From: Cellulomonas wangsupingiae
GTDB taxonomy: Bacteria; Actinomycetota; Actinomycetes; Actinomycetales; Cellulomonadaceae
Direction: 5' to 3'
DNA: 64,000 nt
Assembly (NCBI RefSeq): GCF_024508275.1
Contig: NZ_CP101989.1
Location: 1,612,001-1,676,000, forward strand
Made by a program: the position numbers and the translations under genes. This document shows, in pieces, positions 26,058-32,372 of the stretch. The notes beneath the pieces are model-generated. The model made no database searches, was not told the DNA's origin, and saw only the letters and a program-made list of their open reading frames with translations. Every line of letters begins with the position of its first letter. The first letter of the stretch is position 1.

Positions 26058-27434
26058 TCAGCGACCCAGCAGCGGTGCCACGGCGTCGGCGACCCGGCTG
26101 GGTCGCCCGGTGCGTGCCTCGACGCGGTCCGACCAGGTCGTGGCCCAGCGCGCGGCGGTGATCCCCGCCCATCGCAAGGGCTCCGGCTCCCACGGGGGTG
26201 ACCGGTGGCCCACCCACGGCAGCCGGGTGAGCGGCGTGTCCGCGCCGGTGACCAGGTCGGCGAGCGTGCGCCCCGCCAGGTTCGCCGCGCCGACACCGTC
26301 ACCGACGTAGCCGCCTGCCGCACCGATCCCGGTGTCGGGGTCGAGCACCACCGACGGGTGCCAGTCGCGCGGCACACCCAGCGGCCCGCCCCACGCGTGG
26401 GTGACGTCGTAGCCGTCGACCTGCGGGAAGAGGTCGACCAGGGTCCGGTGGAGGTGCTCGTGCACGCGCGCGACGTGGTCGTACGACGCGTCGAGACGCG
26501 AGCCCAGGTGGTAGGGCGCGCCCCGTCCGCCGAAGGCGATGCGGTCGTCCGCCGTCCGCTGCCCGTAGACGACGAGGTGCCGGGCGTCGGTGAACGTCTG
26601 CCCGTCCGCGAGCCCGATCTGCGACCACACGTCGGGGGGCAGCGGCTCGGTCGCGATCATCAGCGAGTACACGGGCGCGACCGTGCGCCGCCCGCCCGGC
26701 AGGGACGCCGACCACGCCTCGGTCGCCCGCAGCACCCAGCGGGCCCGGACGGTGCCGTGGTCGGTCACCACGGCACGTGGCGAGACGCGCAGCGCGCGGG
26801 TGCCCTCGGCGATGCGGGCGCCGCGCTGCTCGAGCACGCGTGCGAGGCCCTGCACGAGGCGGGCCGGCTGGACGCGCGCGCAGTCGGGCGTCCAGGCACC
26901 CGCGAGCACGCCGTCCGCGCGCACGTGCGCCGCGACGCCCTCGGGGTCCAGGAGGTGCGCCTCGTCCCCCCAGCGTGCGGCCTCCTCGACCTCGGCCGCG
27001 ACGCGCAGCACCTGGGGCGGGGTGCGTGCGAGGGTGACCGTCCCGCCGAACCGGAAGTCGCAGTCGATCTGCTCGGCGGCGGTGACGCCCCCGACCTCCA
27101 CGACGGTGTCACGCATCGCCGCGCGCATCGCGAGTGCGGCGTCGGGGCCGTGCCGACGTGCGAGCGCGTCGGGTGCGACGGGGAAGAGCGCCGAGCACCA
27201 CCCGCCGTTGCGCCCGCTGGCCCCGAACCCGGCGGTCCGTGCGTCGAGCACGAGGACGTCGAGCGACGGGTCCGCCTCCAGGAGGTAGTACGCCGTCCAG
27301 AGCCCGGTGTACCCCGCCCCGACCACCACGACGTCGGCCGTCGTGTCGCCGTCGAGCGGAGCGCGCGGCTGGGCGGCGGCAGGGTCCTCGCCGACCACCT
27401 GGTCCCACCACAGGGAGACGTCGGCGAGCGTCAC
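26058..27434 (-). CDS. FAD-dependent amine/amino-acid oxidoreductase (DAO family)
   Basis: 458-residue flavoprotein. The dinucleotide-binding motif is VVVVGAGYTGLWTAYYLLE at about residues 33–51, and FGASGRNGGWCSALFP follows. The C-terminal FAD contact is GYVGDGVGAANLAGRTLADL. This architecture occurs in gamma-glutamylputrescine oxidase (PuuB), glycine oxidase and related enzymes. No gamma-glutamylputrescine synthetase is encoded nearby, so the exact substrate is open. Context points to a polyamine or polyamine-derived amine. GTG 27434 overlaps the aminotransferase stop by 4 bp. Last gene of the lrp–aminotransferase–oxidoreductase operon. Confidence 0.87.
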   Translation of the reverse strand: MTLADVSLWWDQVVGEDPAAAQPRAPLDGDTTADVVVVGAGYTGLWTAYYLLEADPSLDVLVLDARTAGFGASGRNGGWCSALFPVAPDALARRHGPDAALAMRAAMRDTVVEVGGVTAAEQIDCDFRFGGTVTLARTPPQVLRVAAEVEEAARWGDEAHLLDPEGVAAHVRADGVLAGAWTPDCARVQPARLVQGLARVLEQRGARIAEGTRALRVSPRAVVTDHGTVRARWVLRATEAWSASLPGGRRTVAPVYSLMIATEPLPPDVWSQIGLADGQTFTDARHLVVYGQRTADDRIAFGGRGAPYHLGSRLDASYDHVARVHEHLHRTLVDLFPQVDGYDVTHAWGGPLGVPRDWHPSVVLDPDTGIGAAGGYVGDGVGAANLAGRTLADLVTGADTPLTRLPWVGHRSPPWEPEPLRWAGITAARWATTWSDRVEARTGRPSRVADAVAPLLGR

Positions 27435-28807
27435 AGGCGCGCCCACGCCTCGGTCAGCACCCCGCGCAGGATCTGCTCGATCTCGTCGAACTGCGCCGGG
27501 CCGCACGTCAGGGGCGGCGCGAGCTGGACGACCGGGTCCCCGCGGTCGTCGGCGCGGCAGTACAGCCCGGCCTCGTACAGCGCGGGGGTCAGGAAGCCGC
27601 GCAGCAGCCGCTCGGACTCGTCGTCGTCGAACGTCTCCCGGGTCGCCCTGTCCTTGACGAGCTCGATGCCGTAGAAGAAGCCCTCGCCGCGCACGTCGCC
27701 GACGATGGGCAGGTCGAGCAGGCGCTCGAGCGTGCTGCGCAGCACCGGGGCGTTCTCGTGGACGTGGTCGACCACGCCCTCGGCCTCGAAGAGGTCGAGG
27801 TTGGCCATGGCGACGGCCGCCGACACGGGGTGGCCGCCGAACGTGTAGCCGTGCGCGAAGCTCGTGGAGCCCGTCGCGAAGGGCTCGTACACCCGGTCGG
27901 ACACCAGGCAGGCGCCGATGGGCGAGTAGCCCGACGTCATGCCCTTGGCGCACGTGATCATGTCGGGGACGTAACCCAGGTCCTCGCACGCGAAGATCGA
28001 GCCGATGCGCCCGAACGCGCAGATGACCTCGTCGGAGACGAGGAGCACGTCGTGCTCGTCGCAGATCTCCCGCACCCGCTCGAAGTACCCGGGCGGGGGT
28101 GGGAAGCAGCCGCCCGCGTTCTGCACGGGCTCGAGGAAGACCGCGGCGACCGTCTCGGGCCCCTCGAACTCGATGGCCTCGCCGATGCGGTCGGCGGCCC
28201 AGCGGCCGAAGGCCTTCGGGTCGTCGCGCAGGTGCTCCGGGGCACGGTACGCGTTGGTGTTGGGCACCTTGTGGGCACCGGGCACGAGCGGCTCGAACGG
28301 CGCCTTCAGCTCGGGCAGGCCCGTGATGGACAGCGCGCCCTGCGTGGTGCCGTGGTAGGCGATGGCCCGCGAGACCACCTTGTGCTTGCCGGGGCGTCCG
28401 CGCAGCCTCCAGTACTGCTTCGCCAGCTTCCAGGCCGTCTCGACGGCCTCGCCGCCACCCGTCGTGAAGAAGACCCGGTTGACGTCGCCCGGTGCGTGGG
28501 CGGCGAGGCGCTCGGCCAGGTCGATCGCCTGCGGGTGCGCGTAGGACCACAGCGGGAAGAACGCGAGCTCGCGCGCCTGGGCCGCCGCCGCTGCGGCCAG
28601 CTCCTCGCGCCCGTGGCCGAGCTGCACGACGAACAGCCCCGACAGGCCGTCGATGAGGCGGTGGCCGTCGGCGTCCCAGATGTGGTGACCCTCGCCGCGC
28701 ACGATCGTCGGGACCCCGTGGTCCCAGGCGCTCTGCCGCGTGAAGTGGCCCCACAGGTGGGCGCGGGCGGCCGTCTGCCGGTCGGTGCCGCGTGCTGTGG
28801 TGGTCAT
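27431..28807 (-). CDS. Class III aminotransferase, probable putrescine/polyamine aminotransferase
   Basis: 458-residue PLP enzyme. Key parts are FFTTGGGEAVETAWKLAKQY, RAIAYHGTTQGALSITGL, EPVQNAGGCFPPPPGYFERV, LLVSDEVICAFGRIG with the PLP aspartate, and MITCAKGMTSGYSPIGACL with the Schiff-base lysine. The family includes putrescine–pyruvate aminotransferase (SpuC). With an aldehyde dehydrogenase and a Pot transporter beside it, conversion of putrescine to 4-aminobutyraldehyde is the likely job, though beta-alanine or other ω-amino substrates cannot be excluded. ATG 28807 overlaps the lrp stop (ATGA). Confidence 0.87.
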   Translation of the reverse strand: MTTTARGTDRQTAARAHLWGHFTRQSAWDHGVPTIVRGEGHHIWDADGHRLIDGLSGLFVVQLGHGREELAAAAAAQARELAFFPLWSYAHPQAIDLAERLAAHAPGDVNRVFFTTGGGEAVETAWKLAKQYWRLRGRPGKHKVVSRAIAYHGTTQGALSITGLPELKAPFEPLVPGAHKVPNTNAYRAPEHLRDDPKAFGRWAADRIGEAIEFEGPETVAAVFLEPVQNAGGCFPPPPGYFERVREICDEHDVLLVSDEVICAFGRIGSIFACEDLGYVPDMITCAKGMTSGYSPIGACLVSDRVYEPFATGSTSFAHGYTFGGHPVSAAVAMANLDLFEAEGVVDHVHENAPVLRSTLERLLDLPIVGDVRGEGFFYGIELVKDRATRETFDDDESERLLRGFLTPALYEAGLYCRADDRGDPVVQLAPPLTCGPAQFDEIEQILRGVLTEAWARL

Positions 28808-29271
28808 CGCGTCCCCCAGTTGTAGAGCTGCTTGTGCAGGCGCAGGTAGACGAACGTCTCGGTGCTGCGGACCCCGGGCAGGGTCCGGATCGTCTCGTTG
28901 AGGACGGTCAGCAGGTGCTCGTCGTCCTCGCACACGACCTCGACGAGGACGTCGAACGAGCCGGCGGTCACGACCACGTAGTCGACCTCCGGGATGGTCG
29001 CGACGTGGTCCGCCAGGACGTTCAGGTCGCCGTCGGCGCGGATCCCGATCATCGCCTGGCGCCGGAAGCCCACCTGCATCGGGTCCGTGACGGCGACGAT
29101 CTGGATGACGCCGGACTCCTGCAGCCGCTGCACACGCTGCCGCACGGCCGCCTCGGACAGGCCGACGGCCTTCCCGATCGTCGCGTACGGCCGGCGTCCG
29201 TCCTCCTGGAGCTGTTCGATGATCCCCTTGGCGGCCGCGTCGAGCGCGACGGCGCTGCGTTCTGACGTCAT
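28804..29271 (-). CDS. Lrp/AsnC family transcriptional regulator
   Basis: 155-residue regulator. The N-terminal helix-turn-helix (LQEDGRRPYATIGKAVGLSE, AAVRQRVQRLQESGVIQIVA) is followed by the RAM ligand-binding domain (GSFDVLVEVVCEDDEHLLTV, IRTLPGVRSTETFVYLRLHK). Such proteins form octamers that wrap DNA and sense amino acids or related metabolites. First gene of the leftward operon and divergent from the aldehyde dehydrogenase gene. The shared 210-bp gap holds three phased GGATCC sites, so it probably controls both directions and itself. Confidence 0.9.
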   Translation of the reverse strand: MTSERSAVALDAAAKGIIEQLQEDGRRPYATIGKAVGLSEAAVRQRVQRLQESGVIQIVAVTDPMQVGFRRQAMIGIRADGDLNVLADHVATIPEVDYVVVTAGSFDVLVEVVCEDDEHLLTVLNETIRTLPGVRSTETFVYLRLHKQLYNWGTR

Positions 29272-29278
29272 GGCCCCG

Positions 29279-29308
29279 ATCGTGGTACCCCGCGCCGCGC
29301 CGCGGCAA
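29279..29308 (-). promoter_or_regulatory. Candidate lrp promoter (leaderless)
   Basis: On the minus strand, TTGCCG (29308–29303), 18-bp spacer, CACGAT (29284–29279), then 7 nt to the ATG at 29271. The -35 directly abuts operator site 1 (29309–29320), so occupancy of that site would be expected to affect lrp expression. Confidence 0.5.
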
Positions 29309-29380
29309 GTGGATCCGTGGGCCGGCCGCTGGTTCACGCACGGATCCGTGGCGAGGAGGGCGGGCGACGACGGATCCACC
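29309..29380. promoter_or_regulatory. Three phased GGATCC-centred operator-like sites
   Basis: Site 1 GTGGATCCGTGG (29309–29320), site 2 inside the 12-bp palindrome CACGGATCCGTG (29339–29350), and site 3 on the minus strand GTGGATCCGTCG (29379–29368). Their centres are 31 and 30 bp apart, close to three helical turns, so all face the same side of the DNA. They lie between the lrp -35 and the predicted aldehyde dehydrogenase promoter. Multiple phased sites are how Lrp/AsnC octamers bind (family knowledge). The link to this Lrp protein is inferred. Confidence 0.7.
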
Positions 29381-29392
29381 GGTGACCGACGC

Positions 29393-29421
29393 TTCCGGTC
29401 GCGCTCCGGTCGCACTAGCCT
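29393..29421 (+). promoter_or_regulatory. Candidate promoter of the aldehyde dehydrogenase gene
   Basis: TTCCGG (29393–29398), 17-bp spacer, TAGCCT (29416–29421). The same architecture (TTCCGG-N17-TAACCT) precedes cenC. The -35 starts 13 bp after operator site 3. Confidence 0.45.
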
Positions 29422-29481
29422 CGCGGGATCGCACCGCCCGACACCGCCGTCCGCCGGTCGCCCGGCGCCAGGAGGAGGACC

Positions 29482-30921
29482 GTGACCGTCACCGCGAGCG
29501 AGCTGACCAACGTCGTCGACGGCAAGGACGTCCCGGCGCAGGACGGCCGGACGACAGCCGTCGTCGACCCGAGCACCGGGCAGGAGTACGCACGGGCGCC
29601 GCTCAGCGGCCCCGCGGACGTCGACCTCGCGTTCGCCGCCGCGGACCGGGCGGCCGCGGCGTGGGGACGCACGACACCGGCCGAGCGGCAGACGGCGCTG
29701 CTCGCCCTCGCCGACCTCGTCGACGCGCACGCCGACGAGCTGGTGACGGCGGAGTCGCGCAACACCGGCAAGCCGCTGCACCTGACGGTGACCGATGAGG
29801 TGCCGCCGTGCGTCGACCAGCTGCGGTTCTTCGCCGGTGCCGCGCGGGTCCTGACGGGGTTGTCGGCGGGGGAGTACCTCGAGGGCCACACCTCGTGGCT
29901 GCGCCGTGAGCCGGTCGGCGTCGTCGGCCAGGTCACGCCGTGGAACTACCCGCTGATGATGGCCGTGTGGAAGATCGCCCCCGCGCTCGCGGCCGGCAAC
30001 ACCGTCGTCCTCAAGCCCTCGGACACCACGCCGGTCACGACGGTGAGGCTCGCGCAGCTGGCCACGCAGGTGCTGCCGCCCGGCGTGCTCAACGTCGTGT
30101 GCGGCGACCGGAGCACGGGCCGGGCGCTCGTCGCCCACCCGCGCCCCGACCTGGTGGCGATCACGGGGTCCGTGCGCGCGGGCTCCGAGGTCGCGCGCGC
30201 CGCGGCCGACGGCCTCAAGCGGGTGCACCTGGAGCTCGGCGGCAAGGCCCCCGTGCTGGTGTTCGACGACGCCGACCTCGAGGCGGCGGCCGAGGGGATC
30301 GCGGAGGCGGGCTACTACAACGCCGGTCAGGACTGCACGGCCGCCACGCGGGTGCTGGTCCACGCGCGGGTGCACGACGACCTCGTCGCGGCCCTCGTGC
30401 CGGCCGCGCGGGCGAGGCGCACGGGCGCCCCCGACGATCCCGGCGTGGCGTTCGGGCCGTTGAACAGCGCGGCGCAGCTCGCGCGGGTGACCGGCTTCCT
30501 CGACCGTCTGCCCGACCACGCGCAGGTCGCCGTGGGCGGCGGGCGGCCCGACGGCCCCGGGTACTTCCTCGAGGCCACGGTCGTCACGGGGCTGCGGCAG
30601 CAGGACGAGGCGGTGCAGGAGGAGATCTTCGGCCCGGTGATCACCGTGCAGGCGTTCGACGACGAGGACGAGGCCGTGCGTCTGGCCAACGACGTGAGGT
30701 ACGGCCTGGCGTCGTCGGTGTGGACACGGGACCACGCGCGCGCGCTGCGGGTCTCACGTGCGCTCGACGCCGGTGTCGTGTGGGTCAACACGCACCTCCC
30801 GTTCGTCGCCGAGATGCCGCACGGGGGGTTCAAGCACTCGGGTCACGGCAAGGACCTCTCCCTCTACGGGCTGGACGAGTACACCCGGGTCAAGCACGTG
30901 ATGTCGGCCTTCGGGGCCTAG
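29482..30921 (+). CDS. patD: Aldehyde dehydrogenase, probable 4-aminobutyraldehyde dehydrogenase
   Basis: 479-residue NAD(P)+-dependent dehydrogenase. Motifs are GQVTPWNYPLMMAVWKIAPA, the catalytic glutamate in HLELGGKAPVLVF, the catalytic cysteine in NAGQDCTAATRVLVH, and EEIFGPVITV. NAGQDCTA in place of the common NxGQxC–C(T/V)A variants and overall similarity favour the gamma-aminobutyraldehyde dehydrogenase (PatD/YdcW) branch, oxidising 4-aminobutyraldehyde to GABA. GTG 29482 has AGGAGGAGG just upstream. Divergent from lrp and followed by the transporter operon 242 bp later. Confidence 0.85.
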   Translation: MTVTASELTNVVDGKDVPAQDGRTTAVVDPSTGQEYARAPLSGPADVDLAFAAADRAAAAWGRTTPAERQTALLALADLVDAHADELVTAESRNTGKPLHLTVTDEVPPCVDQLRFFAGAARVLTGLSAGEYLEGHTSWLRREPVGVVGQVTPWNYPLMMAVWKIAPALAAGNTVVLKPSDTTPVTTVRLAQLATQVLPPGVLNVVCGDRSTGRALVAHPRPDLVAITGSVRAGSEVARAAADGLKRVHLELGGKAPVLVFDDADLEAAAEGIAEAGYYNAGQDCTAATRVLVHARVHDDLVAALVPAARARRTGAPDDPGVAFGPLNSAAQLARVTGFLDRLPDHAQVAVGGGRPDGPGYFLEATVVTGLRQQDEAVQEEIFGPVITVQAFDDEDEAVRLANDVRYGLASSVWTRDHARALRVSRALDAGVVWVNTHLPFVAEMPHGGFKHSGHGKDLSLYGLDEYTRVKHVMSAFGA

Positions 30922-31163
30922 GGCGCACCGGGACGAACCGGGAGGGGTCCGACACGTGGGCGGCCCTGTCACCTTTCGGGAGCACGCCAGTAACATGTCG
31001 CCGCGTCGTGTCTCAGGCATGTTCTTCGTCGCGAATGTTCCGGGAATGGAAACTTTTCGTTGCGCCTGGCCCGTGGCACCACGGATTCCTTGTGCGAGCA
31101 CCTGCGGGTGCGCCACGATCCAGCCGGGTCGCGCGTCGTCGCGGCCCGCACGAGAGGAGCGAG
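30922..31163 (+). promoter_or_regulatory. Leader/control region of the Pot transporter operon
   Basis: 242 bases without a gene and visibly lower in G+C than the surroundings, especially about 31019–31062. A possible promoter is TGTCAC (30968–30973), 17-bp spacer, TAACAT (30991–30996). Two degenerate relatives of the GGATCC sites occur about 32 bp apart: CACGGATTCC (31080–31089) and CACGATCC (31114–31121). A GAGAGGAGCGAG ribosome-binding site precedes the ATG. Confidence 0.4.
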
Positions 31164-32372
31164 ATGAGCAGCGACCGACGTCCGCTCCCGGGGGACCCCC
31201 GGGTGCGTGAGCTGGTGCGGCAGGCTCGGGGGGTCTCCCGGCGGCGGTTCCTGGCGGGGGCGGCCGGCGCCGCGGGGACCGGGGCGCTGCTGGCGGCGTG
31301 CGGGACCGGCGGCCCCACGCAGGCGGGGCCGGACGGCGGTGGTGGCTCAGGCGCGCTGCGGTGGGCGAACTGGACGCAGTACCTCGACCAGAATGTGGAG
31401 GGCACCGGCTTCCCCACCCTCGAGGCGTTCGAGGAGACGTCGGGGATCGACGTCGAGTACTTCGAGGACATCGAGGACAACGACTCGTTCTACGGCAAGA
31501 TCTCGCGCCAGCTCGAGAGCGGGCAGGACATCGGCTACGACGTCGTCACCCTCACCGACTGGATGACGGCGCGGTGGATCCGCCAGGAGCACGTCGCCGA
31601 GCTCGACCGCACGCGCATGCCCAACGCCGCGAACATCCTGCCGAACCTCGAGTCCGTCGACTTCGACGACGGGCGCAGGTACTCCCTGACGTGGCAGTCC
31701 GGCTTCGCGGGCATCGCGTGGAACATCGAGGCGATCCCGGACGGTCTGCGCTCGGTCTCGGACCTGTGGGACCCGCAGCACAAGGGCCGCATCGTCGTCC
31801 TGTCCGAGATGCGCGACACGATCGGCCTCATCATGCTCGAGAACGGGATGGACCCGGCGGGCGACTGGACCACGGACGACTGGTTCGACGCCCTCGACGT
31901 GGTGCAGCGCAACCTCGACGACGGCCAGATCCGCCAGGTCCGCGGCAACTCCTACACGGAGGACCTCAAGTCGGGCGACGCGGTCGCCTGCATGGCGTGG
32001 TCGGGGGACATCACGTCGCTGAACTACGAGGTCGGGGGCAAGTTCGCGTTCGCCATCCCCGACGCCGGCGGCACGCTGTGGAGCGACAACGTCATGGTGC
32101 CGAAGGCCTCGCCGCGCCGGGCGCAGGCGGAGGAGCTCTTCGACTACTACTACGACCCCGAGGTCGCCGCCGAGGTCGCCGCGTGGGTCAACTACATCAC
32201 CCCGGTGCAGGGGGCCCAGGAGGTGCTGGCGCGGACCGACCCCGAGCTCGCCGAGGACCCGATGATCTTCCCGACCGAGGAGATCCTGTCCCGGGCGCAC
32301 GTGTTCCGGACGCTGACGCCGGCGGAGGAGGAGCGGTACAACGGTCAGTTCCTCCAGGTCATCGGCGTGTGA
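31164..32372 (+). CDS. potD: Polyamine ABC transporter substrate-binding lipoprotein (PotD/PotF family)
   Basis: 402-residue extracellular binding protein. The N-terminus combines a twin-arginine motif (VSRRRFLAGAAG) with a lipobox (LLAACG, Cys near residue 41), so export is probably via Tat with lipid anchoring. Core features are LRWANWTQYLDQNV, YDVVTLTDWMTARWI, NVMVPKASPRRAQAEELFDY and AAWVNYITPVQGAQEVL, typical of spermidine/putrescine-binding proteins. Affinity for one polyamine cannot be told. ATG 31164 follows GAGAGGAGCGAG. First gene of potD–A–B–C. Confidence 0.88.
   Translation: MSSDRRPLPGDPRVRELVRQARGVSRRRFLAGAAGAAGTGALLAACGTGGPTQAGPDGGGGSGALRWANWTQYLDQNVEGTGFPTLEAFEETSGIDVEYFEDIEDNDSFYGKISRQLESGQDIGYDVVTLTDWMTARWIRQEHVAELDRTRMPNAANILPNLESVDFDDGRRYSLTWQSGFAGIAWNIEAIPDGLRSVSDLWDPQHKGRIVVLSEMRDTIGLIMLENGMDPAGDWTTDDWFDALDVVQRNLDDGQIRQVRGNSYTEDLKSGDAVACMAWSGDITSLNYEVGGKFAFAIPDAGGTLWSDNVMVPKASPRRAQAEELFDYYYDPEVAAEVAAWVNYITPVQGAQEVLARTDPELAEDPMIFPTEEILSRAHVFRTLTPAEEERYNGQFLQVIGV

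Follow-up and report, generated by a model that had tools for sequence, protein, structure and literature searches.

A predicted Lrp operator array with a 31-bp pitch between divergent polyamine-catabolism promoters of Cellulomonas wangsupingiae

In this study we present evidence that the intergenic region 29272-29481 of a 64,000-nucleotide stretch of the Cellulomonas wangsupingiae genome (below, the window) is a phased operator array. The array would serve the Lrp/AsnC-type regulator encoded beside it (28804-29271) and would lie between the divergent promoters of a polyamine-catabolism locus, a reading to which we give a probability of roughly 0.88. The evidence is comparative and consists of a palindrome and a 31-bp pitch that related loci have kept. 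We infer that the neighbouring Lrp binds the sites of the array and that its effector is a metabolite of the polyamine pathway.

RESULTS

The regulator has an N-terminal AsnC-type helix-turn-helix and a C-terminal RAM (AsnC_trans_reg) domain, both above their Pfam cut-offs (PF13404, 51.5 bits against 27; PF01037, 62 bits against 25). The stop/start overlaps that join lrp, the aminotransferase gene and the FAD-dependent oxidoreductase gene (Table 1) make it most likely that lrp is the first of three genes in one operon. With lrp apparently first in this catabolic operon, the array would control catabolism besides lrp. The word 'autoregulatory', used in a preliminary description of this DNA, is therefore too narrow for an operon that also appears to include the aminotransferase and the oxidoreductase. 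No NCBIfam model reached its own cut-off for the FAD-dependent oxidoreductase, and the dehydrogenase scores under the cut-off of TIGR03374, a model stricter than the one given in Table 1. Downstream of the dehydrogenase gene lies a transporter with PotD-, PotA-, PotB- and PotC-like components. Only the PotA-like protein, encoded by the gene after the PotD-like gene, passes a model cut-off (potA TIGR01187, 364.3 bits, cut-off 355.6), the PotD-like product itself being under the cut-off of the PotD model.

Table 1. Features of the locus in window coordinates; operators and promoter elements are predicted
Feature	Position	Strand	Remarks
FAD-dependent oxidoreductase gene	26058..27434	-	start overlaps aminotransferase stop (GTGA)
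Class-III aminotransferase gene	27431..28807	-	start overlaps lrp stop (ATGA)
Lrp/AsnC-type regulator gene (lrp)	28804..29271	-	Pfam HTH_AsnC-type and AsnC_trans_reg above cut-off
lrp -10, CACGAT	29279..29284	-	putative; 18-bp spacer from -35
lrp -35, TTGCCG	29303..29308	-	directly adjoins site 1
Operator 1, lrp-proximal	29309..29318	.	centre 29313.5; abuts lrp -35; relatives hold a ACGGAWTCNCTTG-like element there
Operator 2, middle	29340..29349	.	centre 29344.5; perfect 10-bp palindrome ACGGATCCGT
Operator 3, distal, dehydrogenase-gene side	29370..29379	.	centre 29374.5
Aldehyde dehydrogenase gene -35, TTCCGG	29393..29398	+	putative
Aldehyde dehydrogenase gene -10, TAGCCT	29416..29421	+	putative; 17-bp spacer; TA(G/C)NNT-like, its distances from the array clustering
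Aminobutyraldehyde dehydrogenase gene	29482..30921	+	NF010000, 708.8 bits (cut-off 615)
Single operator ACGGATTCCTT	31081..31091	.	strongest odd-form site in window; before PotD-like gene
Transporter promoter, -35 TTGTGC and -10 CACGAT	31090-31095 and 31114-31119	.	18-bp spacer; layout matches lrp promoter
PotD-like substrate-binding lipoprotein gene	31164..32372	+	leads the genes of a polyamine-type ABC transporter, which extend to 35260

For comparison we assembled 110 lrp loci, namely the best 80 of 566 titled loci, many of them MAGs, and 30 from the genus (29 relatives and the window's own), some species being present in both sets. The dehydrogenase gene is divergent from lrp and adjacent to it at 105 of the 110, Streptomyces included; at L024 the divergent dehydrogenase match is just 32% identical. 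The order aminotransferase - lrp - divergent dehydrogenase likens the locus, by gene order, to that of the Lrp/AsnC-family protein EpuRII (SCO5656), which is listed between the aminotransferase gene SCO5655 and the dehydrogenase gene SCO5657 and is connected with polyamine use (PMC9397018). Streptomyces relatives of the window's Lrp are 69-75% identical to it among the matches listed.

Regions upstream of lrp that shared at least 25% of their 8-mers were removed, which left 76, and setting aside the window (L083), L054 (no adjacent dehydrogenase gene) and L079 (truncated) gave a training set of 73. Expectation-maximisation on these 73 regions, begun from 220 random seeds with the six best runs refined, converged in five of the six on ACGGAWTCCGT, after which came a weak position and then a G; the sixth run gave a shifted copy. 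The motif is an odd palindrome centred on W, and its 11-column matrix was made symmetric and then frozen. Sites of at least 5 bits number 162 in the 73 regions against a mean of 29 in 20 shuffles. Their pairs gather at one spacing: 61 pairs lie 31 bp apart where 1.2 would be expected from random placement, and the other lags hold 7 pairs at 32 bp, 7 at 62 bp, 6 at 63 bp and at most 3 each over the remainder of the 7-109 bp range.

Relatives that keep the genes could have lost the sites or their spacing, an outcome that would speak against the array. What we found instead is a 31-bp pair summing to at least 14 bits in 64 of the 73 training regions, compared with 1 of 730 shuffles; pairs of this strength at other lags tested (27-35 bp) number 9 at lag 30, 16 at lag 32 and at most 3 elsewhere. 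Nine regions fall below the threshold (L084, L091, L090, L088, L095, L006, L003, L058 and L016). In six of them (L084, L088, L090, L091, L003 and L095) one site takes the GGATCC form, an even palindrome on which the odd matrix imposes a penalty, and L006 and L058 have no good 31-bp partner site. L004, L009 and L015 reach 14 bits by virtue of a strong proximal site, the partner contributing just 2.0-2.6 bits. With a spacer-tolerant matrix applied to 74 regions (window included), a second site above 4 bits appears in 68 and a third as well in 19; shuffles gave 1 of 222 and 0 of 222, respectively. The mean score at the position 31 bp beyond the middle site is -1.0 bits, the scanned offsets as a whole averaging -11.6 (sd 1.9). 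Of the three sites, two are widely kept; most of the window's clade has a clear third site, which is weak elsewhere.

The same pitch appears in a held-out set of 38 further loci (nine of the genus and 29 of the class), 25 of which are unrelated by the 8-mer rule, both to the earlier loci and among themselves. The 31-bp pair sums to at least 14 bits in 22 of these 25, and in 19 of the 25 both members reach at least 3 bits, a rule under which the next lags, 20 and 32, count 3 each. Held-out loci L125, L127 and L143 remain below even the 14-bit sum. Within the short stretches fetched, the dehydrogenase gene was not found at L125, L127, L143, L126, L128, L145 and L156. L125 and L127 are genus members with an lrp orthologue and no array upstream of it, and their neighbourhood may be rearranged.

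It might be possible that another regulator, of the EpuRI type or an Lrp paralogue, uses the sites and that the linked lrp gene is incidental. Among S. coelicolor promoters, EpuRI shifts those of sco5657 and epuRII (PMC8998196), and the genus commonly carries Lrp paralogues of ~35% identity. However, the distribution of the operator follows the linked gene. The 13-mer ACGGAWTCVCTTG, a form that excludes the window's own operator variant, has 21 matches in 81 genus genomes, each within ~100 bp upstream of the lrp match. All 21 come from the 39 genomes that have a strong lrp orthologue (E 4.7e-63 or better), of which 18, the window's own included, lack the exact 13-mer, and none was found in the 42 genus genomes without a strong orthologue, though 40 of these have weaker Lrp matches. 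EpuRII, moreover, shifts its own promoter by EMSA in S. coelicolor (PMC8998196), and the phasing of dimer sites at two or three helical turns is a trait of the Lrp family (PMC2995911), one that the predicted sites share with their 31-bp period. We consider a different binder unlikely.

In the window's genome, near-palindromes occur at 42 places and a reversed control pattern at 4, two figures from which we conclude nothing. None of the 15 examined of these 42 loci has a 31-bp partner site, and these 15 thus revealed no further arrays in the genome. Two loci, L115 and L118 (G000:C1:1191437 and 1819508), carry a perfect ACGGATTCCGT with identical secondary matches at identical positions and perhaps represent a duplicated mobile element.

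A generic scan for sigma-70 promoters and terminators found nothing, and the assignments of the lrp and dehydrogenase promoters in Table 1 accordingly rest on resemblance among relatives. The promoter hexamers of the locus are far from the consensus. On this comparative footing the hexamers proposed for the dehydrogenase gene are present, and the first site does abut the lrp -35, both as the preliminary description had it. The ATG of lrp comes 7 nt after its -10, and the lrp mRNA is perhaps leaderless. Past the centre of the proximal operator, the first TTG comes at 4-5.5 bp in 49 of the 74 regions, at 16-17 bp in 21 and at neither distance in 4, by a rule that is crude (in L063 and L080 the first TTG looks accidental). 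The two placements of the lrp -35 are about one helical turn apart.

These distances bear on the suggestion that the proximal element is an extended promoter, that is, the -35 region of some sigma factor, and no operator. The close TTG of the 49 regions would fit, as would the same layout of element and -35 before the transporter gene. However, the 21 regions with the TTG at 16-17 bp would not, and the proximal motif is palindromic and repeated 31 and 62-63 bp away, so that we regard a promoter element as highly improbable and retain the operator.

For the dehydrogenase -10 we searched the pattern TA(G/C)NNT, with an expectation of 0.23 matches per shuffled region. Among the 70 regions with the gene in range, 56 have one match, 5 have two or more and 9 have none. 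The 56 single matches lie 47-50 bp from the middle site in 28 cases, 59-60 bp in 2, 69-72 bp in 15, 78-82 bp in 5 and elsewhere in 6. Their periodicity at 10.5 bp (R 0.77, from the 53 single-match regions at 40-90 bp, the distances 18, 31 and 39 bp having been dropped) is suggestive only, since the regions are related to one another. Counting each of the 16 distinct distances once gives R 0.50; P is 0.017 when the period is preset and 0.79 when it is allowed to vary.

A match to the PotD-like protein is present at 26 loci. At 10 of the 11 closest (57-67% identical) an operator of at least 7 bits lies 79-113 bp before the predicted start of the PotD-like gene, and at the eleventh, L015, it lies at ~130 bp. 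None of the 15 other loci (35-55% identical, many partial) has an operator in the 79-113 bp range. The PotD-like gene of L005 is preceded, at 149 to 87 bp, by three operators ~31 bp apart, against the single one of the window. Among the best 80 of the 566 titled loci, L021, L028, L038, L042, L052 and L062 have a second lag-31 pair 3.4-3.8 kb upstream of lrp, and L049 and L055 each have a further lag-31 pair singly.

In the window the sites were noticed as copies of GGATCC. An exact search of the 64 kb places them at 29311-29316, 29342-29347 and 29372-29377, inside the 12-mers GTGGATCCGTGG (29309-29320, plus strand), ACGGATCCGTGG (29340-29351, plus strand) and GTGGATCCGTCG (29379-29368, minus strand), and the coordinates bear out the spacing of 31 and 30 bp between centres that had been described. 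The centres of even sites are ambiguous by half a base, and the 31/30 spacing thus fits a 31/31 rhythm. Operator 2 is the top-scoring site of the window at 14.4 bits (spacer-tolerant matrix). A search of the whole genome for GGATCCGTSG-N16-22-GGATCC returned three strand-wise matches, all within the cluster 29309-29380. In the window, the looser 12-mer with up to two mismatches is not over-represented (18 matches, 27.7 expected).

GGATCC itself did not prove to be the shared element. Within 200 bp upstream of lrp, 92 of the 110 loci have no GGATCC, 13 have one, 4 have two and the window alone has three, and we rejected the literal hexamer as the conserved element: the conserved operator is the odd palindrome, of which GGATCC is a local variant. 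The proximal site reads GGAATC in eight close relatives (L084-L091) and GGATCC in the window; CGGATCCG is present at the middle site in all nine. After de-duplication, seven members of the window's clade remain, in which 61-63 bp separate the distal from the proximal site; L086 has no distal site above 2 bits, and GGATCC occurs twice in four close relatives. With three copies unique to the window and the palindrome widely kept, the literal repeat appears to be a local refinement of an array that is far older. That the triplet arose as a cluster by chance, or is what restriction-site or repeat evolution left behind, with no binding protein, is scarcely credible: GGATCC is indeed unenriched in the window (16 copies, 20.1 expected by base composition) and the literal triplet is missing from the other 109 loci, but random placement of 16 copies brought three within 61 bp in just 0.15% of 200,000 trials (0.0015), and the palindrome and its 31-bp spacing are kept far beyond the genus.

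DISCUSSION

The comparative evidence upholds the Lrp operator array, and the following mechanism might be envisaged. Each operator would be the site for one Lrp dimer, and the 31-bp pitch, equal to three helical turns, would place two or three dimers on one face of the DNA. These dimers would belong to a single Lrp oligomer, probably an octamer, that bends or wraps the 61 bp from the first centre to the third and in this way sets both divergent promoters, the first serving lrp, the aminotransferase and the FAD-dependent oxidoreductase and the second the aminobutyraldehyde dehydrogenase. A single like operator, in the same position relative to a predicted -35, would bring in the PotD-like transporter gene. 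In our judgement there is an even chance that bound Lrp mainly activates. We lean to activation because the hexamers are weak, an operator centre lies ~42 bp before the lrp start codon and the positions look helically constrained. Repression relieved by a signal metabolite is almost as probable, and an effect of neither kind is unlikely.

Regulatory switches of this kind are known and textbook; the operator, the exact pitch and the spread appear to be the new detail. EpuRII is reported to shift, besides its own promoter, those of glnA3, sco5676, sco5977, sco6960 and other regulators, and sco5657 is not among the targets named in the parts of that report covered here (PMC8998196). According to a review, sco5655 expression increases with polyamines (PMC9397018). 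The terms 'binding motif' and 'consensus' appear nowhere in the main text of PMC8998196, and the sources covered here give neither a motif nor a site spacing for EpuRII. Among the papers listed by literature searches, none reports an EpuRII motif in its title or at the beginning of its abstract.

The closest analogue so far described is BarR, an Lrp-type regulator of Acidianus and Sulfolobus, for which three operators separate the divergent barR and aminotransferase genes (PMC10201364). It forms octamers with apparent DNA wrapping by AFM, and in an E. coli reporter system its own gene was repressed and the partner aminotransferase gene activated (PMC10201364). However, BarR is archaeal, the spacings for Ah-BarR are 17 and 27-29 bp, and the effector is beta-alanine (PMC10201364), whereas the window's array has a constant 31 bp from centre to centre and its lrp is apparently the first gene of the catabolic operon. 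Ss-LrpB of Sulfolobus solfataricus, with a 15-bp consensus (TTGCAAAATTTGCAA), is described as having its highest affinity at the outer sites, whereas in the window the middle site has the top score. The solved structure nearest by sequence to the window's Lrp is PH1519, with entries including 2e1c. The palindrome of this protein, FL11, is unlike the operator palindrome of the window. Entry 2e1c is the FL11-DNA cocrystal, and FL11 of Pyrococcus binds as a dimer to a 13-bp palindrome and forms octamers with lysine or arginine (PMC2995911). FL11 differs also in its predicted control of ~200 transcription units.

It is conceivable, though we hold it doubtful, that the array acts as a rigid nucleoprotein scaffold whose 31-bp pitch is kept across the class, the promoters being shifted only by whole helical turns. 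The offsets behind this idea are 5 or 16-17 bp between the proximal site and the lrp -35, and ~49, 60, 71 or 81 bp between the middle site and the dehydrogenase -10. If it were true, a stereospecific contact between Lrp and RNA polymerase would be implied at both promoters.

In conclusion, we describe a putative operator array that would give a precise operator, ACGGAWTCCGT every 31 bp, to a regulator of polyamine use that is widespread in actinobacteria. Two or three targets are also predicted for this regulator, for which the sources covered here report gel shifts alone. The lrp promoter positions one helical turn apart may serve as a natural experiment on the contact between an Lrp-type regulator and RNA polymerase.
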